Shown in pieces: positions 2,138 to 41,085 of a DNA stretch of 64,000 nt. Location of the stretch: assembly GCF_900618535.1 (NCBI RefSeq), contig NZ_UYJA01000001.1, positions 744,001 to 808,000 on the forward strand. Reading direction: 5' to 3'. Positions within the stretch are counted from its first letter, which is position 1. Every line of letters begins with the position of its first letter. The position numbers and the translations under genes are program-made. Origin of the DNA: Pseudomonas bubulae. GTDB taxonomy: Bacteria; Pseudomonadota; Gammaproteobacteria; Pseudomonadales; Pseudomonadaceae. The notes under the pieces were generated by a model. That model had not been told where the DNA came from, did no database searches, and was given only the letters and a program-made list of their open reading frames with translations.

Positions 2138-3568
2138 CTACCCCTGCCACCCCCCACCCAGCGCCGCAAACACATCCACCAGGGACAACGAGACCTGCGC
2201 AGTGCTGTCCACCAGCGCCGCTTCGTTGGCCAGCAACGCGTTTTGCACCGTGAATACGTTGAGAAAGTCCACCGTACCCTGGGCATATTGCTGGTGCACG
2301 CTGTCCAGCGCCCGCTGGCTATGCATCACCGCCTGCTGCAGGCTGTCGCGCCGGCGCTGGCTGGCCTGATACGCCACCAGCGTATCGTCCACCTCATGCC
2401 AGGCGCGCAATACGGTTTGCTGGTAGGCAATGCCCGCCTCCTGCTGGCGCCCTTCCTGCAACTGCAAGGCCCCTTGCAAACGCCCGCCCTCGAACAACGG
2501 TACGCTCAAGCCCGGGCCGAATGCAAAACTGCGCGACCCCCAACTGCCCAGATCCGACAGCTGCGTGGCTTGAAAACCGATACTGCCGGACAGGGTAATC
2601 CGCGGATAGAAGTCCGCCTCGGCCATGCCGATCGCTGCAGTGGCTGCATGCAATCGGGCCTCGGCACGACGAATATCGGGCCGCCGTTGCGCCAATTCGC
2701 TGGGCAGACCGATCGGCACATCGGCGCCATAGGCCGGCACCCCTGCCGCTGCGCTCAATTGTGCCTGCAAGGCTCTCGGCTCGCGGGCCAGCAGCAAGCC
2801 GAGAGCATTGATCAACTGTGCACTGCGTTGCTGCAAGGGGGCCTGACGTGCTTCGATCTCGGCCACTTGGGCGCCAGCTTCAGACACCTGCAAATCCGTA
2901 GCCACGCCCTCCCGCAGCTGCAACCGGGTCAGTTCCAGGCTGCGGCGGGCGATTTGCAGGTTTTGCTCCACCACGGCCAATGCCTGCTGAGTGCCGCGCA
3001 ACTGAATATAGTGCTGCGCGGTCTGCACGATCACCAACAGTTGCACCGCGTTACGGTCCTGCACCGCCACTTGTACCGAGGCATCAGCCGCTTCCACCGA
3101 ACGCTTGACCCGGCCCCAGAGGTCAGCCTCCCAACTGAACCCAAGGCCACCATTCCACAGGTTGAAAGCCTGCTTGCCACTGTGCCCGGAAGGGTCACTC
3201 AAACCTTTCTGGCTGTTACGGCTCCGACTGTAAGCCGCCGTTGCACCGACCTCGGGCAAGGTGTCGGCGTTGATCTGACGGCGGATAGCCAGGCTTTGTT
3301 GCAAGCGGCTTGCAGCCAGTTGCACATCAAAGTTGCGCTGCTGCGCCTCGCGCACCAGCGCCGACAATTGCCTGTCGCCGAAACGGTCCCACCAGTGCAG
3401 GTCCACCGCTGTTTGCAGCGCATGGTTGTGCCCCGCCTCAGTGGGTACCGACGCCCAGTTCGCAGGCAACTTGGGCACGGGAGCCTTGAAGTCCGGGCCT
3501 ACCACGCAACCACTCAGGCTCAGTACGCTGTAACAGGCCACAGCCAGGGCCACTGCAGTTTTGTTCAT
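2138..3568 (-). CDS. outer-membrane efflux lipoprotein (NodT/OprM-like)
   Basis: 476-residue TolC-family outer-membrane channel of the lipid-anchored NodT/OprM type. The signal peptide ends in a lipobox LSGC (Cys about residue 21), followed by VVGPDFKAP, a standard motif of this family. Two repeated outer-membrane-factor halves rich in Ala/Gln helices follow. It completes a tripartite pump with the adaptor and MFS genes immediately upstream; its start overlaps the adaptor stop by 4 bases, so translation is coupled. It should carry drugs or aromatic toxicants across the outer membrane. Confidence 0.92.
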   Translation of the reverse strand: MNKTAVALAVACYSVLSLSGCVVGPDFKAPVPKLPANWASVPTEAGHNHALQTAVDLHWWDRFGDRQLSALVREAQQRNFDVQLAASRLQQSLAIRRQINADTLPEVGATAAYSRSRNSQKGLSDPSGHSGKQAFNLWNGGLGFSWEADLWGRVKRSVEAADASVQVAVQDRNAVQLLVIVQTAQHYIQLRGTQQALAVVEQNLQIARRSLELTRLQLREGVATDLQVSEAGAQVAEIEARQAPLQQRSAQLINALGLLLAREPRALQAQLSAAAGVPAYGADVPIGLPSELAQRRPDIRRAEARLHAATAAIGMAEADFYPRITLSGSIGFQATQLSDLGSWGSRSFAFGPGLSVPLFEGGRLQGALQLQEGRQQEAGIAYQQTVLRAWHEVDDTLVAYQASQRRRDSLQQAVMHSQRALDSVHQQYAQGTVDFLNVFTVQNALLANEAALVDSTAQVSLSLVDVFAALGGGWQG

Positions 3569-4629
3569 CGAGTGCTGACCTGCTGATCGTGAGCCATTGC
3601 CGTGTCGATGGAGGCATCCACCGACATCCCCAGGCGCAATTGGCTGGCCAGTAACTGCCCGTGATCCAGAGTGACTTTCACCGCAATACGTTGCGCCACT
3701 TTGGTGAAGTTGCCCGTGGCGTTATCCGGAGCAATCGCCGAGAACGTCACCCCCGTGGCCGGGGCGATGCTGTCCACGGTGCCTTGCAGGGTCTGCCCCG
3801 GAAAACTGTCGACCTTGATCGTCACACGCTGCCCTGCCTGCATGTTGGTGAGCTGGTGCTCGAGAAAGTTGGCCACCACATAGGCGTCGGCCAGCGGCAC
3901 CACCGCCAGCACGGTGTCGCCGGGTTTGACGTAAGCGCCAAGGCGCACACTGCGACGCCCCACCACACCGTCAAACGGTGCCAGCAGTTGTGTATGCGAC
4001 AAGTCCAGATCGGCCCGTGCCAGTAAGGCCTCGGCATACTGCACCGAGGCTTGCGCGGCCGTAGCCCGGGCGGCCAGCACCCGGGTTTGCTGGCGAGCAG
4101 CTTCCAGTGCAGCCTTGTGCTGTGCCAACTCGGCACGCGCGGTGAGCGAACGGTTTTTCGCCTGCTGGGAGTTCTGCAGCGTGCCTGCGCCCTGCCCGGC
4201 CAGATGCTGATAACGCTGCAACTCATGCTCGGCAAATTCGACCTGCGCCAGATCCGCATCGACCGTGGCCTTGGCCTGCTCGATCAACGAACGCTGGCGT
4301 TCCAGCATCGCCAGGGCATTGACCCGTTGTGCCTGTGCCGTCGCCACGCTGGCTTGCGCAGCCTGCACGGCAGCGCGGTAGTCCTGCGGATCGATCCGCG
4401 CCAGCAACTGACCGGCCTTGACCGGCTGGTTATCCTGCACCAGCACCTCGTCGATAAACCCCGCCACTTTTGGCGCAATCAAGGTGTAATCGGCGCTGAC
4501 AAAGGCATCATTGGTGTTCTGCACGGTGCCCGTGGCAAAGACCAACCGCCACAACCCGTACAGCACGATCACTGCCAACGCGACTGCGCCGACCAGAACC
4601 CAGGGCTTGCGCCCGTTTGTTGTACTCAT
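3565..4629 (-). CDS. HlyD/EmrA-family membrane fusion (adaptor) protein
   Basis: 354-residue periplasmic adaptor with a single N-terminal transmembrane helix (about residues 10-30), a split lipoyl domain (LIAPKVAGFIDEVLVQDNQP and the later LLAPFDGVVGRR part), a long coiled-coil hairpin between them (about residues 80-180) and a beta-barrel region near the end. It links the MFS pump to the outer-membrane channel. The open frame extends much further upstream, but that part overlaps the pump gene and reads like out-of-frame sequence; the ATG at 4629, overlapping the pump stop by four bases, is the natural start. Confidence 0.92.
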   Translation of the reverse strand: MSTTNGRKPWVLVGAVALAVIVLYGLWRLVFATGTVQNTNDAFVSADYTLIAPKVAGFIDEVLVQDNQPVKAGQLLARIDPQDYRAAVQAAQASVATAQAQRVNALAMLERQRSLIEQAKATVDADLAQVEFAEHELQRYQHLAGQGAGTLQNSQQAKNRSLTARAELAQHKAALEAARQQTRVLAARATAAQASVQYAEALLARADLDLSHTQLLAPFDGVVGRRSVRLGAYVKPGDTVLAVVPLADAYVVANFLEHQLTNMQAGQRVTIKVDSFPGQTLQGTVDSIAPATGVTFSAIAPDNATGNFTKVAQRIAVKVTLDHGQLLASQLRLGMSVDASIDTAMAHDQQVSTR

Positions 4630-10101: not shown

Positions 10102-11820
10102 ATGCCAACCATTTCACGCAAAGAATACGCAGGCCTGTTCGGCCCAACCACGGGCGACAAAATCCGCCTGGGTGACACCAACCTGTTTGTCGAGATTGAA
10201 AAGGACCTGCGCGGTTACGGTGAAGAATCCGTTTACGGCGGCGGCAAATCCCTGCGCGACGGCATGGGCGCCGACAATACCCTGACCCGTGACAACGGCG
10301 TACTGGACCTGGTTATCACCAACGTCACCATCATCGACGCGATCCAGGGCGTAATCAAAGCCGACGTGGGTATCCGTGACGGCAAGATCGTCGGGATCGG
10401 CAAAAGCGGCAACCCGGGCATCATGAGCGGCGTGACTCCCGGCCTGGTCGTGGGTGTGAGCACCGACGCCATCTCCGGCGAGCACCTGATCCTGACTGCA
10501 GCCGGGATCGACACCCACATTCACTTGATCTCGCCGCAGCAGGCTTACCACGGGCTGTCCAACGGCATCACCACCTTCTTCGGCGGCGGTATCGGCCCTA
10601 CCGATGGCACCAACGGTACCACCGTGACTGCCGGCCCCTGGAACATCCGCCAGATGCTGCGTTCGCTCGAAGGGCTGCCGATCAACGTCGGCATGCTGGG
10701 CAAGGGCAACTCCTTTGGCCGCGAGCCGCTGGCCGAGCAGATCATCGCCGGTGTCGCCGGGCTCAAGGTTCACGAAGACTGGGGCGCAACCTCAAACGCA
10801 CTGCGCCATGCGCTGCGTACCGCCGACGAGATGGACGTGCAGGTGTCGGTGCACACTGACAGCTTGAACGAATGTGGCTACGTCGAAGACACCATTGATG
10901 CTTTCGAAGGTCGCACCATTCACACCTTCCACACGGAAGGCGCCGGTGGTGGTCACGCCCCCGACATCATCAAGGTGGCCAGCCAGAGCAACGTGCTGCC
11001 AAGCTCGACCAACCCGACCCTGCCCTACGGCGTCAACAGCCAGGCCGAGCTGTTCGACATGATCATGGTCTGCCACAACCTCAACCCGAACGTGCCGGCT
11101 GACGTGTCGTTTGCTGAAAGCCGCGTACGCCCGGAAACCATTGCCGCCGAAAACGTGCTGCAGGACATGGGCGTGATCTCCATGTTTTCCAGTGACTCCC
11201 AGGCCATGGGCCGGGTCGGTGAAAACTGGCTGCGGGTGATGCAAACCGCCCATGCGATGAAAGTGTCGCGTGGCAAACTGCCGGAAGACAGCGCCGATAA
11301 CGACAACTTCCGGGTGCTGCGTTACGTGGCCAAGATCACCATCAACCCGGCACTGGCCCAGGGTATCAGCCATGTGCTGGGCTCGGTGGAAGTCGGCAAG
11401 ATGGCCGACCTGGTGCTGTGGGATCCGCGCTTCTTCGGGGCCAAACCGAAAATGGTGATCAAGGGCGGCATGATCAACTGGGCCGCCATGGGTGACCCGA
11501 ACGCCTCTCTGCCAACCCCGCAGCCGGTGTTCTACCGTCCGATGTTCGGTGCCTTCGGCAAGTCCCTGCAAGACACCTGCGTGACCTTCGTGTCGCAGGC
11601 GGCGCTGGAAGACGGCGTGAAAGAAAAGGCCGGGCTGGAGCGTCAGGTCATGGCGGTGCGCGGTTGTCGCACCGTGTCCAAAAAGGACCTGGTGCGCAAT
11701 GACCAGACCCCGCATATCGATGTTGATCCGGAAACTTTCGCGGTAAAAGTCGACGGCGTACACGCCACGTGCAAGCCCATCGATGTGGCCACCATGAACC
11801 AGCGTTATTTCTTTGGCTAA
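10102..11820 (+). CDS. ureC: urease alpha (catalytic) subunit
   Basis: 572 residues, amidohydrolase fold. Nickel and catalytic residues are all present: H139 and H141 (THIHL), the carbamylated lysine K222 (LKVHEDWG), H224, H251 (VHTDSLNE), H277 ([10 protein letters not shown]) and D365 (SSDSQAMGR); the mobile-flap Cys324-His325 (MVCHNLNPN) is also intact. The offset to the Klebsiella enzyme is a constant five residues, and 572 is the length of the Yersinia-type subunit rather than 566-567. AAAGGAG precedes the ATG. Requires UreEFGD and nickel, all supplied by this locus. Confidence 0.98.
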
Positions 11821-33076: not shown

Positions 33077-33295
33077 ATGACTCGAACAGCCAAGTGGTTC
33101 CCCCGGCTAGCCCTCGTGGCGGCTTCGGTGATGGCGTTGTCCGCCACCGCCGTGGCCGCCGAAAAACCCAATATCCTGGTGATCTTTGGTGATGACATTG
33201 GCCAGTCCAATATCAGCGCCTACTCCATGGGTGTGGTGGGCTACAAAACCCCCAACATCGACCGGATTGCCAAAGAAGGCATGATGTTCACTGAC
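33077..33295 (+). pseudogene. arylsulfatase, 5' part (split by the integrated element)
   Basis: First 73 codons of a secreted sulfatase: signal peptide ([18 protein letters not shown]) then the calcium-binding start [16 protein letters not shown] and [18 protein letters not shown]. The frame continues into the element to a stop at 33403, giving a 109-residue dead peptide that lacks the catalytic Cys. The 3' part resumes in the same frame at 39718. AAGGAG lies before the ATG. Confidence 0.92.
33286..33295. repeat. attL core repeat
   Basis: GTTCACTGAC, left copy. On its right the element supplies AACTC. Joined to the other end, the reconstructed circular site reads GAGTT-CACTGAC-AACTC: 5-bp inverted arms around a 7-bp spacer, the usual core layout for a tyrosine recombinase. 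Confidence 0.85.
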
Positions 33296-33344
33296 AACTC
33301 TGAGGACCGAAGAGATCACCCAGTAGACACAGGGCCTGATCCAT

Positions 33345-34808
33345 ATGACAACCTCGATGATCCCTCAAACTGCACCAAAGCTGTTACAGACTGCCTTAGC
33401 TAAGCCTTACCACTATCGTAGGTCTGGTCGTTACTACCTCAGGCTGCGTCCCCAAGGGTCCTCTACGGGTTACCATTCGGTCTCCTTGCTGACCAACGAT
33501 AAGGCCACAGCCATGACCATCTCTCAGGACATCCTTTCGGCTCTCGCTGTATTCCATCTGGACAACACCGGGGCAACTTGGGATGAGCTACGCGATCACC
33601 TCTACGTTATCGCAGAGGAAGCCCTGACCATGGCACATGGTGATAGCTCTCTGGTCGCCTATGAGTCGATCTACGGGGATCTAAGCGATAACCTTAGGAA
33701 AGCATCAAGCCAAATGGCAATGACCAGTACTCAGCAACAAGGGCTCTCTAAGGCTCAAGAGGTACTCAAGGCTGCTCATGGTCGTCTTCATGGTGACTCT
33801 GGGGCTCTGGCTGATCTGGTCACTGAGCTTGGGGCACCCCACTCACATGCTTCTCCTTGTGTGTCCCTATCTGTAAGCGCATCTCAAGGAACCTCTCAAG
33901 GAACCTCTTCTGGTATCACCTTCAATGAGCTCTCCACACTCTACATAGAGGAACATAAGGCCAACGTTGAGCCTGCCACCTTGCGGGATATCCATTCTGT
34001 CTGTAAGACGCTCTCGGGGGCCTTCGCTGGGTTGGATCTTAAGGGGCACACTCGGGCGGATATGGTTGCTCTCAAAGGTGCCCTCATGGTTGATCGTCAA
34101 GGCTCCACTGTGAACAAGCTATTGACTCGCCTATCAACTGTCATGTCGTGGGCTGTGAACAATGGCTACCTTGATAAGAGCTTCGACAAAGGACTTAAGT
34201 TGACCAAGGATGCTGACAGCTCCCGTAGAGCGTTCTCTAAGGACCAAGTGGCTCGGCTCATGGTTGCTGCCAACTCATTGCCTGTGACCGATGAGACCCG
34301 CTGGGCAGTGTCTGTAGGGGTTCTCACAGGTGCCCGTATCGCTGAGGTCCTTCAGTTGACCCGTAAGGACATCGTTGAGGTCAATGGTCAGTGGGTCGTG
34401 AGCATCAATGCTGATGATGGTAAGTCAGTGAAGACAAAGAGTTCCCTTAGGGTTGTGCCGTTGACCGATGAGGCCTACGGGTTTGACCTCAAAGACCTCC
34501 TTGAGTTTGTTGCTGGGTCACCTGAAGGCAACGCTCTGTTCTGTAGCGGCTCACGCTCAGCGACCCAAGAGAGGCTCAACAGGTTCATCAAGAAGACCCT
34601 TGGGTTAGACAAAGGCAAGGCGAGCCTATCGTTTCATTCCTTGCGACACTCATTGGCTGGAGCCTTGAAGGCCGCTGAGGTGCCTGTGGGGACCGCTGAG
34701 TCGATCTTGGGGCACTCGTCGGGGTCGATCAGTTATGACCTTTATGGTGCTGGGAGTGCAGTAGAGGTAGGCCGTATGACTGAGGCTTTGAAGACTGCCT
34801 TACTCTGA
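33345..34808 (+). CDS. tyrosine recombinase (integrase) of the element
   Basis: 487 residues. Catalytic set intact: R331 ([10 protein letters not shown]), K363/K365 ([12 protein letters not shown]), H431-x-x-R434 ([10 protein letters not shown]), H457 ([11 protein letters not shown]) and Y467. A core-binding SAM-like region covers about residues 190-290; the first 190 residues are atypically long and include a 12-bp tandem repeat encoding SQGTSQGTS. The gene starts only 50 bases inside attL, overlaps the dead-end arylsulfatase frame by 59 bases and has no clear ribosome site, so it may be read from the host operon transcript. It should catalyse integration and excision at GTTCACTGAC. Confidence 0.93.
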
Positions 34809-34861
34809 TTGGTGAAGGGTCTATCGCTTGCCGATAGGCCTGCTTCGAAAAGCGCAACTTC

Positions 34862-35281
34862 ATGGGCATCGAACTGGACGTTCTGGTTGGTCACCCTGAG
34901 CACGACCTTCTGTTTGTGGCGACTCAGGTGGCCCGTGCTGCTGGGCTGAAGCAACCGGCGAACTCTGCCTCTGCATTTCGACGGGTACACAAGGCTGGGC
35001 AGGCCCTGATGGCCCTCATACAAGATGGTTGTATCAGGCTCGAAGACATCCCAGCGGATGAGCGTCACCAGCGCCTGCGCACCACAACGGTGATCTTCAC
35101 AGAATCTGAGTCGTATCAGATGCTTCTGAGAGGCTCCGCGCCTCAGTCTGAGCCGTTCCGAAAGTGGGTCACTGAGGAGGTCCTGCCGACCATCCGCAAG
35201 ACCGGCTCTTACAACGCTGAAGAGTCCACCAACCCAATCGCAATGGGTCCCTTTGGGGCAATGAATACGGGGTGGCGCTAA
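34862..35281 (+). CDS. Bro-N-domain phage protein (antirepressor type)
   Basis: 139 residues. The pattern LLFVATQVARAAGLKQPANSASAFRRV ... TESESYQMLLRGSAPQSEPFRKWVTEEVLPTIRKTG is the Bro-N domain found in prophage antirepressors and viral Bro proteins, which bind DNA or repressors. Only the N-terminal domain is present, with a short tail, so it may be truncated by design. The only available start is the ATG at 34862; no strong ribosome site. A small hairpin (CTATCG/CGATAG, 34821-34837) separates it from the integrase. Its stop overlaps the first phage-type promoter. Confidence 0.8.
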   Translation: MGIELDVLVGHPEHDLLFVATQVARAAGLKQPANSASAFRRVHKAGQALMALIQDGCIRLEDIPADERHQRLRTTTVIFTESESYQMLLRGSAPQSEPFRKWVTEEVLPTIRKTGSYNAEESTNPIAMGPFGAMNTGWR

Positions 35282-35300
35282 ATACCCTCACTAAGGCTAC
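35279..35300 (+). promoter_or_regulatory. T7/T3-group phage RNA polymerase promoter, copy 1
   Basis: TAAATACCCTCACTAAGGC. The T3 promoter as commonly written is AATTAACCCTCACTAAAGGG, so the recognition core ACCCTCACTAA is shared exactly; T7-group phages of Pseudomonas such as gh-1 are reported with very similar promoters (recalled, not checked). Predicted start at G35296. It stands directly before a gene with an ideal ribosome site (35330). Confidence 0.85.
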
Positions 35301-35329
35301 AGCACACCAACTGACCTTAGGAGGACACC

Positions 35330-35953
35330 ATGACCTTGCTCACCCAACCCGGACCACATCATCGCCACGTTGACCACGACACCGGCATCATCCTTCACGT
35401 TGACCCAATCACCGGGCAGATCCTAAAGAGCCACACGATGGTTCTCCCCAAGTCCAAAGATCACCAGTTCAAGGCGTGGGCCACCGAACGTCAAGCCTGT
35501 GAGAGCCTCGCTGAGGACCACTTGAAGACAAGCCCAGTCGTTACGCCTGATGCTCAAGCAGTCATCTCTGAGGAGCCTGTGCGTGGTCGTGGTCGCCCTA
35601 AGGCCGCCTTCAAGAATCCAGTAGCTGCCTATATGCACCTCCTCGCAGTTCCTTACTTACTGCCCTGGGTGGACGACATCATCAAAGGGTCGATCATCAC
35701 CAGTGCTGGCATTAGCAACGGCAAGATCAACGTGAAGACTGGGGCAGTGATCGGGGCCTTGTTCGCTGAGGACATCACAGCGGAGGTCTGCAAGACTCAG
35801 GAGATCAGCTTGAGGACTGCCCAGCGTGTGGCGAAGGCCGCCCGACATGCTGCCCATGGCATCGCTTCCTACGTGGATCGACACCCGAAGTTGAAGGCTG
35901 AAGTTGAGGCTGAAGTGAGCGCAGAGGCTCTATTCCGGGGCTCTCAGGCTTAA
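35330..35953 (+). CDS. element protein of unknown function, possible DNA-binding
   Basis: 207 residues, not recognised. Residues 1-35 carry many His/Asp (HHRHVDHDTG). An AT-hook-like GRGRPK lies at residues 86-91, and ISLRTAQRVAKAARHAAHGI near residue 165 could be a helix-turn-helix. First gene behind phage-type promoter 1; TTAGGAGG lies 7 bases before the ATG. Followed by an AT-rich gap (35954-36104). Confidence 0.75.
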   Translation: MTLLTQPGPHHRHVDHDTGIILHVDPITGQILKSHTMVLPKSKDHQFKAWATERQACESLAEDHLKTSPVVTPDAQAVISEEPVRGRGRPKAAFKNPVAAYMHLLAVPYLLPWVDDIIKGSIITSAGISNGKINVKTGAVIGALFAEDITAEVCKTQEISLRTAQRVAKAARHAAHGIASYVDRHPKLKAEVEAEVSAEALFRGSQA

Positions 35954-36040
35954 CGACGGAATATATAAAAGAAAACTTTAAGACCTCTGAGGAGGAGCAT
36001 CGACCACTTATCGACCAGTCTCATTGAGAGAGGGATTGTG

Positions 36041-36073
36041 ATGAATATCACCCTCTTCAAAGAGGACCTCTAA
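36041..36073 (+). other. 10-codon mini-ORF and hairpin before the Rha gene
   Basis: MNITLFKEDL with a good ribosome site (AGAGAGGGA). A perfect hairpin CCTCTT-CA-AAGAGG lies inside it at 36052-36065, followed by more CTCT/AGAG pairing. It could be a leader peptide or an RNA-processing site in front of the gene at 36105; T7-group mRNAs are cut at such hairpins by RNase III. Confidence 0.35.
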
Positions 36074-36104
36074 GAGAGAACCTTGAGCACATAAGGAGAA
36101 CACC

Positions 36105-36893
36105 ATGACCACCTTGAACACGATCACCATGACCACCGTTGAGATTGCCGCAATGACAGGCAAGCGACACGACCACGTACTTCGGGATGCAGACCGGGCT
36201 ATTGAACTGGTCATGAAATCTCGCGCCCCAAATCTGGGGAGCCAAATTGAAAGTAAGGACGTAGACGCAACTGAAGGAACCTTTGAGAACCGAGGTAAGC
36301 AATATCGAATGCTGGTCCTCAATAAGCATCTGGTCTTCACGCTCATCACCGGCTACGACACTGCATTGCGTTACACAGTCATTGGTCGATGGATCGAATT
36401 GGAGCAAGCAGCTAACCCAGCGTTCGCCTCTCAGGCCATCACTGAGACCCTCATTGACCTACAAACACGAGTCGATGCAATGGCCCCGGCCTACGATGAG
36501 CACGTCCGTAAGGGTCGCTCAGTTGGCTATAGCTGGCGTGAAGCATGTCGTCTCGCTGGCATTGAGCACCCCGACAAGTTCTTGGCCCTTATGGTCCGCT
36601 TGAAGAAAGCCCGTAAGACCCTCCACGGGCACACTGAGATCAACCCAAGCTACGTTAAGAAAGGCTACGTGACTGTGCTCAAGCCTTCCAATCTGGTCGT
36701 CAAGGCCAACGGTGGGCACCTCTTCAAGGTCACCTCCAAGGGCCTCACAGAATGGCTCTCAGCGAATGCAGGTGAGATCAACACAGCGGTCAACACTGCG
36801 AGCCGCCCTAAGGCTGTAGTCGATGAGCATGGCTATACGATCGCTATCACAGGTGACAACACCGAAGGCTTGACCACAAAGGCCATTCATTAA
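36105..36893 (+). CDS. Rha-family phage regulator with antirepressor-like C-terminus
   Basis: 262 residues. The N-terminal half has the Rha pattern (MTTVEIAAMTGKRHDHVLRDADRA ... YRMLVLNKHLVFTLITGYDTALRYTVIGRWIELE, about residues 8-105). The C-terminal half (SWREACRLAGIEHPDKFLALMVRLKK ... GYVTVLKPSNLVVKANGGHLFKVTSKGLTEWL) resembles antirepressor KilAC/ANT domains. Rha proteins interfere with or regulate phage growth. ATAAGGAG gives a strong ribosome site. In a satellite it could control the helper or the element's own state. Confidence 0.82.
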   Translation: MTTLNTITMTTVEIAAMTGKRHDHVLRDADRAIELVMKSRAPNLGSQIESKDVDATEGTFENRGKQYRMLVLNKHLVFTLITGYDTALRYTVIGRWIELEQAANPAFASQAITETLIDLQTRVDAMAPAYDEHVRKGRSVGYSWREACRLAGIEHPDKFLALMVRLKKARKTLHGHTEINPSYVKKGYVTVLKPSNLVVKANGGHLFKVTSKGLTEWLSANAGEINTAVNTASRPKAVVDEHGYTIAITGDNTEGLTTKAIH

Positions 36894-36908
36894 TTCAAGG
36901 AGATCCCT

Positions 36909-37247
36909 ATGACTGCCCAATTGAACTACGGCAAGACCATTCCAACTGAAGCTGATTTGAGCATCATCAATCAGTTCTTCATTAAGCCACGCCGCTCCCG
37001 CCTCATTGAGCTACGCACAGCACTCACAAAGGCTACCGCCCCGGGCCGCTCTCGTTGTCCTGAGTTGGGCACCATCTATGACATGGATGTGGTCTATGCA
37101 TACACCGATCGCACTATGGGTACGTCCTTCACGGGCGCTCTCAAAGAAGCCCTTGAGGCTGGTCTGCCACTCAAGACTCTGATCCGCTGTGACCTACAGA
37201 TCCCGATGTCTAATCAGCCAATCGTCGTGGCCTACAAGGATGCTTGA
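36909..37247 (+). CDS. element protein of unknown function (112 aa)
   Basis: 112 residues, not recognised. Mixed alpha/beta composition: basic patch KPRRSRLIELRTALTKATAPGRSR (about residues 27-50 in part), then YDMDVVYAYTDRTMGTSFTGALKEALEAG. No signal peptide or TM helix. CAAGGAGA precedes the ATG by about 8 bases, 15 bases after the Rha gene, so the two are one unit. Its end leads into the second control module (37251-37303). Confidence 0.75.
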   Translation: MTAQLNYGKTIPTEADLSIINQFFIKPRRSRLIELRTALTKATAPGRSRCPELGTIYDMDVVYAYTDRTMGTSFTGALKEALEAGLPLKTLIRCDLQIPMSNQPIVVAYKDA

Positions 37248-37281
37248 TGAGGTCCCTTTGGGCCAGTAAACATTGGTGTCG

Positions 37282-37303
37282 TAAAAACCCTCACTAAGGC
37301 CAC
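37282..37303 (+). promoter_or_regulatory. T7/T3-group phage RNA polymerase promoter, copy 2
   Basis: TAAAAACCCTCACTAAGGCC, sharing ACCCTCACTAAGGC with copy 1. Predicted start at G37299. Both copies are preceded at about 20-30 bases by a GGTCCCTTTGGG block (35246-35260 and 37251-37265), so a whole control module is duplicated. It drives the structured RNA region and the capsid-like genes. Confidence 0.85.
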
Positions 37304-37586
37304 GGGAATCAGTCACCCATGGTCTCCTCAAAGTCCCACGAGGCGCCCTAAGCGTCAGTAGTGGGCAATCTATGCACCACACCGGAACCTCTTTGCTGTC
37401 CGCCATTCAGCCCAGAGGCATTCCTACAGTCCCCGCCAAGTTAACGCCCACAGGACTGTGAAACCACCTTCAATCCAATACCTTTAAGCAAACCTTGTTG
37501 ATCCCGTGCGGGTCTCCTTTCCCCCATTGGTCACGCGATCATGGCGGCAAGGTTTGACTTAAGGGTCTCTCAAAGGAGAACCCAAT
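37304..37586 (+). ncRNA. highly structured noncoding region behind phage promoter 2
   Basis: No credible gene in 280 bases, but consecutive stems: CCCAC/GTGGG (37335-37365); GGAACCTCT with AGAGGCATTCC (37384-37424, 2-nt bulge); ACAGTCC/GGACTGT (37426-37459); and a 14-bp stem, TTAAGCAAACCTTG with CAAGGTTTG-A-CTTAA (37484-37562, one bulge), enclosing two smaller hairpins (around 37503-37512 and 37525-37543), a three-way junction. It could be a regulatory or packaging RNA, a long 5' leader, or a DNA structure such as a replication origin. Confidence 0.6.
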
Positions 37587-37979
37587 ATGAAACTCGACAT
37601 CGTACATACCGATAAGACCCTGACTATTCAAGGCCAAACTGTGACTAAGGCATATGCCGAAGGCGTGATGTTGGCAGGCTTGCTGGCTGCTGTGGGCAAG
37701 AACCACGGCGCAATCACTTCGATCATCAAGCAGTTCATGGAGGCTGGTCTGAGCACCGCAGCATTCCCTGATCAAACCTCAGTTGCCCGCCAAGAGATCC
37801 ATGCGGCTGGTCTGCGTGAAGCTGCTCGACAACGTGATGCCCAGTTCCATGCGGAACGCTTTGCATCCTACAAGGCACCGACACGTCTTGAGGTAGCTCG
37901 TGCTCGTGAGGCCAAAGAGAAGCAAGCAGCCGCTATCCGTGAACACGGCAACACCATTCGTGCAGCTCGCCGTAACTAA
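37587..37979 (+). CDS. element protein of unknown function, charged helical tail (scaffold-like?)
   Basis: 130 residues. N-terminal third is alpha/beta (MKLDIVHTDKTLTIQGQTVTKAYAEG), the middle hydrophobic (VMLAGLLAAVGKNHGAITSIIKQF) and residues about 75-130 a strongly charged helix rich in Arg/Glu/Ala/Lys. Such tails and the position just before the capsid-like gene suit a scaffold or assembly factor, but the protein is much shorter than T7 scaffold (about 307 residues) and I do not recognise it. AAAGGAG precedes the ATG. Confidence 0.72.
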   Translation: MKLDIVHTDKTLTIQGQTVTKAYAEGVMLAGLLAAVGKNHGAITSIIKQFMEAGLSTAAFPDQTSVARQEIHAAGLREAARQRDAQFHAERFASYKAPTRLEVARAREAKEKQAAAIREHGNTIRAARRN

Positions 37980-38053
37980 CAGTCGGCCACAAGGAGCCTT
38001 TGAGACCTCTCAGGGCTTCCCTAAACAGAATTCAATTCAGGAGATTATCAAAC

Positions 38054-39064
38054 ATGAAACCATACGAATACGTTAAGCCTACAACGTGGTCCACCGCTAT
38101 CACCGAACAAGGTGGGACCATTCAGTTCAACACAGAGACCACCATCAAAGGTGGCGCAGGCACTGACGCAGCGGCCTACGTTAAGGCCCTCACAGATGGT
38201 CTCGATGAATACTTCAACGGTGGAGACTGGGAAGAAGGCGCTGAAGAAGCGATTCCCTGTGAGTTCCGCCCTAAGGGCACCGAGCCGACCACCCAACAGA
38301 TCGTTCTGATGCAAGATCGAAGTGTTGAGTTCGACCCGCGCAAGTCCATCTATGACGATTCGACCTTCACTAAAGGCGAGGCCGTCGCTGGTGACTTCCT
38401 GTTCTGTGAGGCCACCCCTCAGGCCGCTCTGTTTTCTTTTCGTCAGACCTTCTTGGACCATCACATCATGTCGGGCTTCACCCTCAATGGTTTGACGCAG
38501 ACCGCTGAGAAGCTCTTGAAGGACTTCGAGATGTCCTGTGGTGCGACCATTGCCAAGATTCTGACCACCTCTTCGTCCACTGAGGTCAAGGCCCTTACAG
38601 GTCTCTCTAAGAACCCACGCGAACGCGCTGAGGACATCATTGATGGTCTGACCATGAACATCAACCAAGCAGTTGGAACCTCGCTGTCTGACTTCGTGTT
38701 GCTGATCCCGGCTAAAGAAGTTGCTGGTCTTGAGCGTGCTGCTCAGCGTGCTGGACTGTCAGACGTAGAGGACCTCTTGGGCTGTGGCTCTCAGTTCTAC
38801 TCTGGCGAGGACTTGGGCATCTTCATGTTGCCTAAGGGTATGGCCTCACTGAGCTTCCGTAAGGACTCCAACGGTGCTGTGTGGCAGATCCATGCGACCC
38901 GTAACCCTAACGCTATGGCGTGGGACGTAGAGGTCATTGGTGTGGCTGATGTGGTGACACAGGCCAAGGTACAGCTCAAGCTGGCAAACCCTGCTGACCC
39001 TAAAGAGAAGCTCCAAGTAGAGCTGGTCGATTTCCCTATGGTCACTCGTGTGACCTTGGCCTAA
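38054..39064 (+). CDS. possible major-capsid-like protein of the element
   Basis: 336 residues (T7 capsid about 345). No close family recalled. The layout fits an HK97-fold coat: an acidic N-arm and loop (residues 1-130), a long helix (LTQTAEKLLKDFEMSCGATIAKIL, about 146-170), then a domain of the kind SDFVLLIPAKEVAGLERAAQRAGLSDVEDLLG (212-243) with later strands (GIFMLPKGMASLSFR; ATRNPNAMAWDVEVIGVADV). It is followed at once by a T7-late-type terminator, which in T7 lies directly after the capsid gene. AGGAGA is 9 bases before the ATG. Alternatives: another structural protein or a decoy of helper assembly. Confidence 0.5.
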   Translation: MKPYEYVKPTTWSTAITEQGGTIQFNTETTIKGGAGTDAAAYVKALTDGLDEYFNGGDWEEGAEEAIPCEFRPKGTEPTTQQIVLMQDRSVEFDPRKSIYDDSTFTKGEAVAGDFLFCEATPQAALFSFRQTFLDHHIMSGFTLNGLTQTAEKLLKDFEMSCGATIAKILTTSSSTEVKALTGLSKNPRERAEDIIDGLTMNINQAVGTSLSDFVLLIPAKEVAGLERAAQRAGLSDVEDLLGCGSQFYSGEDLGIFMLPKGMASLSFRKDSNGAVWQIHATRNPNAMAWDVEVIGVADVVTQAKVQLKLANPADPKEKLQVELVDFPMVTRVTLA

Positions 39065-39082
39065 CAAGCCATTGCAATGAAT

Positions 39083-39121
39083 ACCTCAAAGGCCTCTAAC
39101 AGGGTCCTCTGGGGTCTTCTT
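39083..39121 (+). terminator. T7 late-terminator-like element
   Basis: Aligned by eye with the T7 terminator after gene 10, about 27 of 40 positions match, including the blocks GGCCTCTAA, GGGTC and GGGGT followed by a T-rich tail. The outer stem ACCTC (39083-39087) / GGGGT (39111-39115) corresponds to the T7 CCCC/GGGG stem. Lies 19 bases after the capsid-like gene. Confidence 0.75.
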
Positions 39122-39160
39122 AATGTTACGTTATTTCATCACATCAGAAGGAGGTAAACC

Positions 39161-39364
39161 GTGACGACCATGACCATCAAATTAATGAAAACAGTCCTTG
39201 CCTCAAAGAGCTTCTGGAAGACCGTAGCCTTGGTCGCAATGATGTCCAGTATCGCTGTCCCTGAAGGGTTCGCTGAGCTTATCGCTGAGGTCCTCTCGGA
39301 GGTGCTGACAAGCATAACGGCAATGGACAATGACGCAGTACTGGTCTCAATGGCCTTCCCTTAG
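39161..39364 (+). CDS. small hydrophobic element protein (holin-like?)
   Basis: 67 residues from a GTG start with a perfect AAGGAGGT ribosome site. One hydrophobic helix (WKTVALVAMMSSIAV, about residues 19-33) then an amphipathic acidic stretch (EGFAELIAEVLSEVLTSI). Small membrane proteins of this type in phages are often holins or superinfection factors; no family match is claimed. It is the last gene of the element and is expressed past the terminator only by read-through. Confidence 0.65.
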   Translation: MTTMTIKLMKTVLASKSFWKTVALVAMMSSIAVPEGFAELIAEVLSEVLTSITAMDNDAVLVSMAFP

Positions 39365-39707
39365 GGCGCTCCTGTGTGAATTCTCGCGGGCAATCACCCT
39401 GCTCAGTTCTCAGAATCAACACAGCAGCGCCTTACAGGAACCTCAAAGCGGACAAAAGGCACCCCTTTGGGAATCTGGGAGAAAAATGTGAGTGACCACC
39501 TTTAATGCTTTGCGGGCACGTTTACCCCGTAGGCCCTCAGGCGCACACAGGCGCGGTAGGGACCCTCGCGAGCGCACGGAAAGGCTCAGGCACGGGCGCA
39601 CGATAAGGACCCCAAGAGCGGCTCATAGAGTGTGACAAGGCAGTATCAAATGGTGATGCCACATGCTACGGTGCCCACCCCATCTGGTCTCCAAGCCACC
39701 TCAGTGA
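39365..39707. other. noncoding right end of the element with a long hairpin
   Basis: Immediately after the last gene, GGCGCTCCTGTG (39365-39376) pairs with CACAGCAGCGCC (39420-39431) at 11 of 12 positions, with further pairing inside (TGAATTCT/AGAATCA). A third CCCCTTTGGG block (39472-39481) recalls the control modules. The segment 39530-39610 is rich in GCGC/CGCG. No gene is seen. Packaging signal, origin or terminator are the candidate roles. Confidence 0.55.
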
Positions 39708-39717
39708 GTTCACTGAC
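39708..39717. repeat. attR core repeat
   Basis: GTTCACTGAC, right copy. The element side shows CAGTGA-GT-TCACTG, a 6-bp inverted repeat across the core (39702-39715). The chromosomal side continues the arylsulfatase frame (GAC TAC TAC). Confidence 0.85.
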
Positions 39718-41085
39718 TACTACGCAGAGAACAGCTGCACCGCCGGGCGCTCGTCGTTTATCACCGGGCAGACGCCGCTGCGCACAGGCCTGTCCAAAGT
39801 CGGCATACCGGGAGCACCGGTAGGCCTGCAAAAGCGCGATATCACCATCGCCCAGGCGCTCAAATCCCAGGGCTACGCCACTGCACAATTCGGTAAAAAC
39901 CACCTGGGCGACCGCGACGAGTACTTGCCGACCAATCATGGTTTTGACGAGTTTTTCGGCAACCTCTACCACCTCAATGCCGAGGAAGAACCCGAACGCC
40001 CGTACTGGCCCAAGGATGACCCGGCTTTCGTCAAGGCCACCTCGCCCCGTGGCGTGATCCACAGTTTTGCCGACGGCAAGATTGAAGACACCGGGGCCCT
40101 GACCGCCAAGCGCATGGAAACCATCGACGACGAAACCACCGCGGCCGCGCAGGAGTTCATCGAAAAGCAGGCCAAGGCCGACAAGCCTTTTTTTGTGTGG
40201 ATGAACACCACGCGCATGCACGTCTTTACCCACGTGCGCGACTCGATGAAGGGCCAGAGTGGTATGCCCGGCAACGAGTACGCCGATGGCATGCTTGAGC
40301 ATGACGGCGACGTCGGCAAACTGCTGAAAACCCTCGATGACCTGAAAATCGCCGACAACACCATCGTGGTCTACACCACCGACAACGGGCCGAACCAGTT
40401 CTCCTGGCCGGACGCGGCCACCACGCCGTTCCGGAACGAGAAGAACTCCAACTGGGAAGGTGCCTTCCGTGTCCCGGCAATCGTGCGCTGGCCGGGGAAA
40501 ATCAAGGCTGGCGAAGTGAGTAACGAGATGTTCTCGGGGCTGGACTGGTTCCCGACCCTGCTCGCGGTGGCTGGCGATGCCGATGTCAAAGACAAGTTGC
40601 TCAAGGGCTGGGCCCCGGTGGCAGGTGGCAACAACTTCAAGGTGCACCTGGACGGTTTCAACCAGCTGCCGTACCTGACCGGCGAACAACCCAAGGGCAA
40701 TCGCAACGAGTTCTACTACTTCAACGATGACGGCATGCTGGTATCGATGCGTTTCGACAACTGGAAAGTGGTGTTCTGCGAGCAACGCGAACCGGGCGGT
40801 TTCAAGGTCTGGAGCGAACCTTTCGTATGCCTGCGGGTGCCGAAAATCTTCAACCTGCGCATGGACCCGTTCGAACGGGCTGACGTGGTCTCCGATCAGT
40901 ATTACGACTGGAGCACGAAAAACGTCTACTTGAACGAACTGGCAATCATGAAGGCGGCCAACTTCCTGGAAACCTTCGTCGATTACCCGCCAAGCCAGAA
41001 GCCGCCAAGCTTCAGTATCGATCAGGTACGGGCAGCGGTAGACGCCAAGATTGCGGAAAAAATGAAAAATCAGCCAGCGCAGTAA
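39718..41085 (+). pseudogene. arylsulfatase, 3' part
   Basis: 455 codons continuing the frame of 33077-33295; the restored protein would be 528 residues. The formylglycine motif is C-T-A-G-R (Cys80 of the restored protein, seven codons after the junction), followed by SSFITGQTPL; later sulfatase motifs include FGKNHLGDRDEYLPTNHGFDEFFGN and YTTDNGPN. Hydrolyses sulfate esters, probably in the periplasm. A fragment from the internal ATG at 39925 could be translated but would lack the catalytic Cys. Precise excision would restore the enzyme. Confidence 0.92.

Follow-up and report, generated by a model that had tools for sequence, protein, structure and literature searches.

The present study concerns a 64,000-nt stretch of DNA from Pseudomonas bubulae (assembly GCF_900618535.1, contig NZ_UYJA01000001.1, positions 744,001-808,000 of the forward strand), hereafter the window, and in particular an element of approximately 6.4 kb integrated in it (33286-39717), which had previously been read from its sequence as a satellite of T7-like phages (hereafter the original prediction). 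The element is bounded by 10-bp direct repeats and splits an arylsulfatase gene after 73 codons; when the flanks are joined, a single open frame is obtained. A 220-base query made of the joined flanks matched 14 of 38 genomes, counting the own genome, where it falls into two pieces. In the best of these it was uninterrupted, at 89% identity in G017 and 86% in G011, and the weaker matches, which are 70-77% identical, may be other sulfatases. The G+C content of the element is 54%, compared with 61% for the flanking DNA. All eight genes run rightward, in the order integrase, Bro-N, orf3, Rha, orf5, orf6, capsid-type gene and orf8, and the features of the locus are as follows.

33077..33295, +: arylsulfatase gene, 5' part (PF00884 2e-5; 24.5 bits, against a cut-off of 25)
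33286..33295, +: left direct repeat (attL core), GTTCACTGAC (repeat search; joined flanks restore the sulfatase frame)
33345..34808, +: tyrosine integrase, 487 amino acids (PF00589 6.3e-19; phrog_1 6e-46)
34862..35281, +: Bro-N / Ant-type regulator, shared with T7-like phages (PF02498 6.5e-12; DNA match to phages)
35280..35302, +: T7-class promoter 1 (late type, PspYZU08-like), AAATACCCTCACTAAGGCTACAG
35330..35953, +: orf3, no assigned function (cluster in 6 of 25 elements)
36105..36893, +: Rha-type regulator (PF09669 1e-8; cluster in 22 of 25 elements)
36909..37247, +: orf5, no assigned function (cluster in 12 of 25 elements)
37283..37305, +: T7-class promoter 2, AAAAACCCTCACTAAGGCCACGG, 5' of the orf6-capsid pair
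37587..37979, +: orf6, 130 amino acids, two long predicted helices (AF2 pLDDT 88)
38054..39064, +: capsid-type protein, predicted HK97 fold, 336 amino acids (structure prediction; 145 relatives)
39072..39125, +: stem-loop 3' of the capsid gene, in the T7-group terminator position (-17.1 kcal/mol)
39161..39364, +: orf8, 67 amino acids, no assigned function (related reading frames in several elements)
39464..39537, +: look-alike of a T7-group concatemer junction (packaging/maturation site), around the terminal repeat start (phage matches and profile)
39708..39717, +: right direct repeat (attR core), GTTCACTGAC (repeat search; joined flanks restore the sulfatase frame)
39718..41085, +: arylsulfatase gene, 3' part (PF00884 5.7e-28 from 39925 on)

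The integrase, the direct-repeat ends and the phage regulators named in the original prediction were all recovered (PF00589, the repeats, PF02498 and PF09669), and the integrase, Bro-N and Rha assignments were backed by both Pfam and PHROGs. The Bro-N protein is 69% identical in amino acids to that of phage CHF7 and 66% to that of PMBT23. Of the eight open reading frames (ORFs) scanned with Pfam and PHROGs, none was recognised as a gene for a polymerase, primase, terminase or portal, consistent with the earlier claim that genes for transcription, replication and packaging are lacking; four of the ORFs (orf3, orf5, orf6 and orf8) had no convincing family match, so hidden functions are possible. 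The capsid-like gene also had no family match above the cut-offs in Pfam or PHROGs, but the predicted fold of its product (mean pLDDT 81) matches HK97-type shell proteins. Relatives of the capsid gene, orf6 and orf3 were absent from 50,697 phage records (tblastn), and close relatives of the capsid gene were absent from IMG/VR. The longer capsid relatives carry an Ig domain that is 44-49% identical to the reading frame that follows the capsid gene in PspYZU08, PfSW6, Psari100M and G11. The orf6-capsid order is that of gene 9 and gene 10 in phage gh-1, and the stem-loop, previously called a terminator, takes the position of the annotated terminator Tp1 of gh-1, 3' of gene 10. The product of orf6 may help the capsid protein to assemble, as a scaffold or as a partner; its best PDB match (E 3.3e-3) is a hypothetical protein and none of the matches listed is capsid-related, and thus the scaffold role rests on position and helices. 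Elsewhere in the window, a match to the Rfam 5' ureB small RNA was observed (91 bits, 10252-10553).

Phage-type promoters and packaging junction

Two T7-class promoters, as called in the original prediction, are present in the element, each in front of a gene block (orf3-Rha-orf5 and orf6-capsid), and are of the type seen in gh-1 and PspYZU08; with the canonical T7 consensus, 0 matches were obtained in the window. The 14-mer ACCCTCACTAAGGC, common to both promoters, occurs twice in 5,027,139 bases, both times in the element, and its reversed control occurs 0 times in the same bases. In PspYZU08, AAGGC is found at the later promoters and mostly GAGGC at the earlier ones, with a parallel split in gh-1 (ATGGC vs mostly GTGGC), suggesting that the element copies the late type. 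The exact promoter TAAAAACCCTCACTAAGGC was found in IMG/VR on one contig of 40,184 bases, which is the length of the PspYZU08 record; PspYZU08 and PfSW6 are the closest phages in the promoter only.

For comparison across the genus, 34 distinct loci were drawn from 32 stretches of 29 of the 30 other genomes with the capsid gene, two named loci and the window, with three rows left out: L034 (on the contig of L002), WINFULL (a duplicate of the window) and G319 (a short fragment). The ends of an element were taken as the best repeat, except in L057 and L060, for which the second-listed repeat, equal to the att core of other elements, was used (the first-listed repeat would give 6177 bp and 6244 bp, respectively); loci with ends that were not measurable (L035, L053/L109, L058, L059, L061, L062 and L063) were excluded from this part. 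A promoter matrix was built from 93 promoters of 12 of 13 phages (Psari100M being without that form). At a score threshold of 14, it found 35 sites within the 163,963 bases of the 25 elements, every one of them on the + strand; 21 of the 25 had at least one site, and the 306,554 flanking bases had 0. The pattern [AT]{3}A?[AC]CCCTCAC was found in 24 of the 25 elements, with 42 occurrences on the + strand and 1 on the - strand inside, and 1 on each strand outside. In L036, a variant site carries TTAAAAACCCTCACAAGAACA, which is also found in the promoter-like repeats of Psari100M.

Near-full orthogonality has been described for the RNA polymerases of four T7-like Pseudomonas phages and T7, also towards the host polymerase, in the relevant passages of PMC10138996, so that promoters of this type should be silent without a matching helper. 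The original prediction had held that such a polymerase is missing, and indeed the single-subunit polymerase family (PF00940) had no match in the own 5.03-Mb genome, in 14 control genomes or in the element-bearing genomes G256, G207 and G128, while the positive controls gh-1 and MR2 both matched. In the survey for a linked polymerase that had been proposed earlier, the capsid gene was found in 31 of 398 genus genomes and PF00940 in 7 of the 398; only G103 and G215 were recorded with both, on different contigs, and the two genes were never on the same contig. In L003, the genome of which lay outside the PF00940 search, no other reading frame near polymerase length was present in the element. 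The T7-type RNA polymerase gene loci of the seven genomes (L100-L106) are perhaps T7-like prophages.

The second phage-type signal is the junction. In a permissive local search of the whole element against gh-1, CHF7 and PMBT23 (E ≤ 0.05), only two regions matched, namely Bro-N (CHF7 and PMBT23) and the junction (gh-1 and PMBT23, not CHF7). Element positions 39464-39506 match gh-1 37109-37146, a segment that includes position 37143, at which the right terminal repeat begins; the PMBT23 counterpart lies between the terminase and the early genes. When positions 39440-39600 were compared with the 50,697 phage records, 16 matches were obtained at E ≤ 10; the best 11 of the 16 are Pseudomonas phages of approximately 40 kb (MR2 at 6e-6, the others at 3e-3); the two of these inspected, MR2 and 17A, belong to the Studiervirinae. 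The remaining 5 matches are to unrelated records, at E of approximately 6. With the gh-1 junction as the query, 93 records were matched, including 79 named Pseudomonas phages. The window motif itself was absent from IMG/VR.

A junction profile built from nine phage junctions only gave an E value of 1.2e-8 for the window; of the 34 distinct loci, 25 were found at E ≤ 1e-3 and 29 at E ≤ 1, with one site in each. All of these sites are on the + strand, which is the capsid strand, 1.35-3.05 kb past the capsid start, and the profile gave no other match at E ≤ 1 in 679,638 bases. Shuffled right ends (587,100 bases) gave one match at E ≤ 10, with a score of 9.0 vs 34.2 for the window. As far as sequence likeness can tell, the junction is the best evidence for a satellite, and it was absent from the original prediction.

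Related elements and gene exchange

The capsid gene, searched with a 61-row alignment that also matches the own genome, was found in 0 of 368 other genomes sampled from the class; close relatives are present in P. viridiflava p4.G3 and Pseudomonas sp. KBW05. The 25 two-ended elements have one core order, consisting of the integrase, variable cargo, orf6, the capsid gene and, where found, the junction, with Rha either before or after the capsid gene. orf6 was matched by tblastn in 24 of the 25, the exception being L060, and was called as an ORF in 21. The size of 24 of 27 measured elements is 6366-6688 bp (mean 6506, sd 91), with L043 (7,801 bp) excluded from the mean, and the two large elements, L107 (G238) of 13,046 bp and L108 (G302) of 12,959 bp, are 1.999 times the mean. 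Six units, or three large ones, make 39.0 kb, and 15 phages compared with them measure 37.4-41.7 kb. Both L107 and L108 carry an additional gene of 325-335 amino acids with no assigned function. In L043 (G287, 7.8 kb), a transposase-like ORF splits the integrase, and this copy is likely stranded. L064 is a contig exactly one element long; duplicated gene ends explain this as well as a circle does, and it was therefore not counted as excision.

Thirteen of the 25 elements, together with both large ones, are integrated at variants of TAGTTGCTGTAGAACTC, in a gene that we take to be that of L-aspartate oxidase (nadB). The window integrase uses a different site and is sister to the TAGTTGCTGTAGAACTC-site group on a long branch (support 82/89). 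A comparison by eye of the window site GTTCACTGACTACTAC (33286-33301 and 39708-39723) with the reverse complement of the usual core gives 10 of 16 identical bases, as if the window integrase had moved to a new site. The cargo of the relatives includes HNH, TIR and DUF4145 genes, and anti-phage genes detected by PADLOC fill the cargo slot after the integrase: PD-T7-4 in L051 (6e-87, 1556-2218 from the left end) and TIR-TM in L043 (9e-75, 2820-3647 from the left end). No defence match was obtained with PADLOC among the four window proteins tested. In the mosaic element of G256, the capsid gene is near 100% identical, vs 61% for the integrase.

Integrase relatives at E ≤ 1e-10 were found in five phage records, namely phTUNSm, phTUNSv, 3MF5 (two records) and G11, all of which are Pseudomonas phages of 40-42 kb; phTUNSv, 3MF5 and G11 are Studiervirinae with the integrase close to the genome end. 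The integrase of G11 falls in one group with the L041 and L051 integrases (100/98), and two label changes are needed for the phage sequences in the integrase tree. The lipoprotein adjoining the G11 integrase is 74% identical to that of element L064, and at the left end of the G11 genome (L099, 72-1976) both the integrase and the lipoprotein group with satellite genes. These groupings show that genes have passed between satellites and T7-like phages, in one direction or the other.

The satellite reading and its rivals

The element is, with high probability, a satellite that is integrated in the chromosome and parasitises T7-like (Studiervirinae) phages of Pseudomonas. The original prediction is strengthened on this point by a junction of the helper type, by a family of like-sized and like-ordered elements with no linked polymerase, and by a capsid gene with no relative in the 50,697 phage records. 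The best reading of these sequences is a new family of satellites that would be switched on by the helper polymerase and packaged by the helper terminase, and we infer excision, replication, packaging and the role of the capsid protein. First, the orf3-Rha-orf5 and orf6-capsid blocks would be left silent by the host RNA polymerase. Second, an infecting helper would bring its single-subunit polymerase, upon which both promoters would be read and the integrase would excise a circle. Third, helper transcripts and the helper replisome would turn this circle into concatemers, as for T7 plasmids with a T7 origin. Fourth, the helper terminase would cut at the borrowed junction and fill heads, probably with approximately 39 kb, in six units of 6.5 kb or three of 13 kb. 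Finally, the own capsid-type protein and orf6 would build or alter these heads to the benefit of the element, which helper tails would deliver. T7-class promoters act as origins, and Chung and Hinkle reportedly described in 1990 the packaging of plasmids by T7, with a replication origin and the concatemer junction as the signals named in the title. Plasmids with a T7 packaging signal were also used in the work described in part of PMC9981461.

The manner of loading is a separate matter. Packaging of concatemers is reported for PICMIs in the passages on them in PMC10803314, and together with the 1:2 size ladder this favours whole multimers in a head of helper size; we give loading as multimers about an even chance. 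The more detailed scenario, in which this is the first known family of T7-like satellites, the helper polymerase serves as switch, replication starter and packaging ticket, the genome is one sixth or one third of a headful, and whole multimers occupy a 39-kb head in whose construction or conversion the own capsid protein takes part, is offered tentatively, at somewhat under even chances.

Several results weigh against this picture. The 1:2 ladder is thin, since it is based on two large elements that may share ancestry, and it would be odd for an element packaged in full-size helper heads to have a capsid gene of its own. The capsid fold comparison gave moderate TM-scores (0.23-0.43 among the matches listed), and encapsulins score as high as phage capsids, so that the fold is no proof of a virion role. 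The 61-row capsid alignment found 5 contigs only in IMG/VR, all of 21-76 kb and none of unit size. L036, L037, L052 and L055 fail the promoter matrix and show only variant CCCTCAC sites; no junction match was found in L052, L055, L056, L061 and L063 (L063 ends inside the capsid gene), and the matches in L054, L038, L045 and L037 are weak (E 0.018-0.28). Some copies are damaged, with a truncated capsid gene and no orf6 in L060 and the split integrase in L043. The idea that promoter and junction types point to the same helper was rejected (20 elements vs 13 phages, r 0.11, p 0.12), also after removal of near-copies (15 elements, p 0.23), and therefore no specific helper is named.

The main alternative inside the same satellite claim is that one 6.5-kb unit is packaged in a small head of the own capsid protein, with the portal and tail of the helper, by a logic like that of cf-PICIs. 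The pairing of the capsid gene with orf6 in 24 of 25 elements, the narrow monomer size and the HK97-type fold all agree with a private one-unit head, which we nevertheless consider rather unlikely. In the part of PMC7762592 on head size, the model averages for T=4/3, T=7/3 and T=3 are 3.6 kb, 8.1 kb and 11.8 kb (8.1-17.1), respectively, and 6.5 kb is near none of these averages, though the intervals are wide; moreover, the 13.0-kb elements, at twice the unit, better fit integer loading of a 39-kb head.

Outside the satellite claim, the element could be a decayed temperate T7-like prophage, from which the genes for the polymerase, replication and packaging have been lost. Related integrases do occur in T7-like phages (phTUNSv, 3MF5 and G11), G11 and L064 share the lipoprotein (74%), and a few element copies are damaged. 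However, 25 elements share one core order and, bar one with a transposase-like ORF, a narrow size, and such constancy would not result from independent decay. The capsid gene has no relative among the 50,697 phage records (tblastn), the polymerase is never on the same contig, and promoters and junction would have been retained without the genes that use them. The original prediction named this prophage as its leading alternative; a capsid gene with no relative in those records argues against simple decay, and we regard the prophage reading as very improbable.

An anti-phage island deserves the same small credence. In this case, the phage promoters would be a tripwire, the capsid-type protein a dominant-negative poison of assembly, the junction a decoy for the terminase, and spread would be secondary. 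Phage-triggered expression would serve poisoning, and some relatives do carry PD-T7-4 (E 6e-87) and TIR-TM (9e-75) as cargo; against this, the integrase, att sites, empty sites and mosaic exchange point to mobility, and control of size is unexpected in a pure defence island. The possibility that host DNA resembles phage promoters and a junction by chance can practically be dismissed, because, short as the promoter matches alone are, 35 sites lie inside the elements with none outside or on the other strand, and the junction profile stands apart from flanks and shuffles.

Comparison with known systems and significance

T7 is the textbook lytic phage. General satellite traits found here are an integrase, a specific integration site and the absence of a complete set of virion or packaging genes; among the traits of a T7-like prophage, promoters and a concatemer junction are present and a single-subunit RNA polymerase gene is not. 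P4-like satellites have their own alpha-type primase, helicase and replication functions and P2-related activators, and no alpha-type primase/helicase or P2-related activator was recognised among the eight ORFs. They resemble the element, as we read it, as integrated parasites of tailed phages. In cf-PICIs, portal, protease, terminase and PICI regulators stand beside the capsid gene, and no packaging genes or regulators of that type were found among the eight ORFs or the cargo proteins scanned. Their own capsid gene is matched in the element by predicted fold only. In the passages on satellites in PMC10803314, P4-like satellites average 10 kb, and cf-PICIs average 14 kb and have temperate helpers, whereas the element has 6.5 kb and one capsid-type gene.

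PICMIs of Vibrionaceae, as presented in those passages of PMC10803314, are like the element in being very small and integrated, with few genes, and in being satellites of virulent phages with concatemer packaging, both of which are presumed for the element. PICMIs integrate beside fis, have AlpA as a key regulator and are without capsid-remodelling genes, whereas the element lies in an arylsulfatase gene, has no AlpA-type match among its eight ORFs and has a capsid-type gene (predicted HK97 fold); the promoters for a phage polymerase and the T7-type junction also set the two apart. PLE is found in Vibrio cholerae with ICP1 as the helper, in contrast to a capsid gene found in genomes of the genus Pseudomonas. 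A 16.8-kb Pseudomonas satellite of a 55-kb prophage is reported in PMC4936722. T7-packaged plasmids are made for the purpose, whereas the element belongs to a natural integrating family with its own genes. Finally, integrase-bearing T7-like phages (Warsawvirus 3MF5 and phTUNSv; G11; LUZ100) share a T7-group junction with the element, and 3MF5, phTUNSv and G11 have a related integrase near the genome end. These phages are of approximately 40 kb and have polymerase, replication, capsid and terminase genes (3MF5: right end only), a set that the element lacks.

No report of a satellite of T7-like phages was found among the matches listed from the open-access PMC literature. If the satellite reading is true, these elements would be a natural counterpart of T7 transducing plasmids, with promoters and a packaging site read straight by the helper, would provide clean test cases for the setting of unit length and head size, and would put anti-phage genes (PD-T7-4 and TIR) on elements that depend on T7-like phages. 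Were each head instead to hold one 6.5-kb unit, such heads would rank among the smallest in tailed phages, a class called missing in the part of PMC7762592 that treats them.

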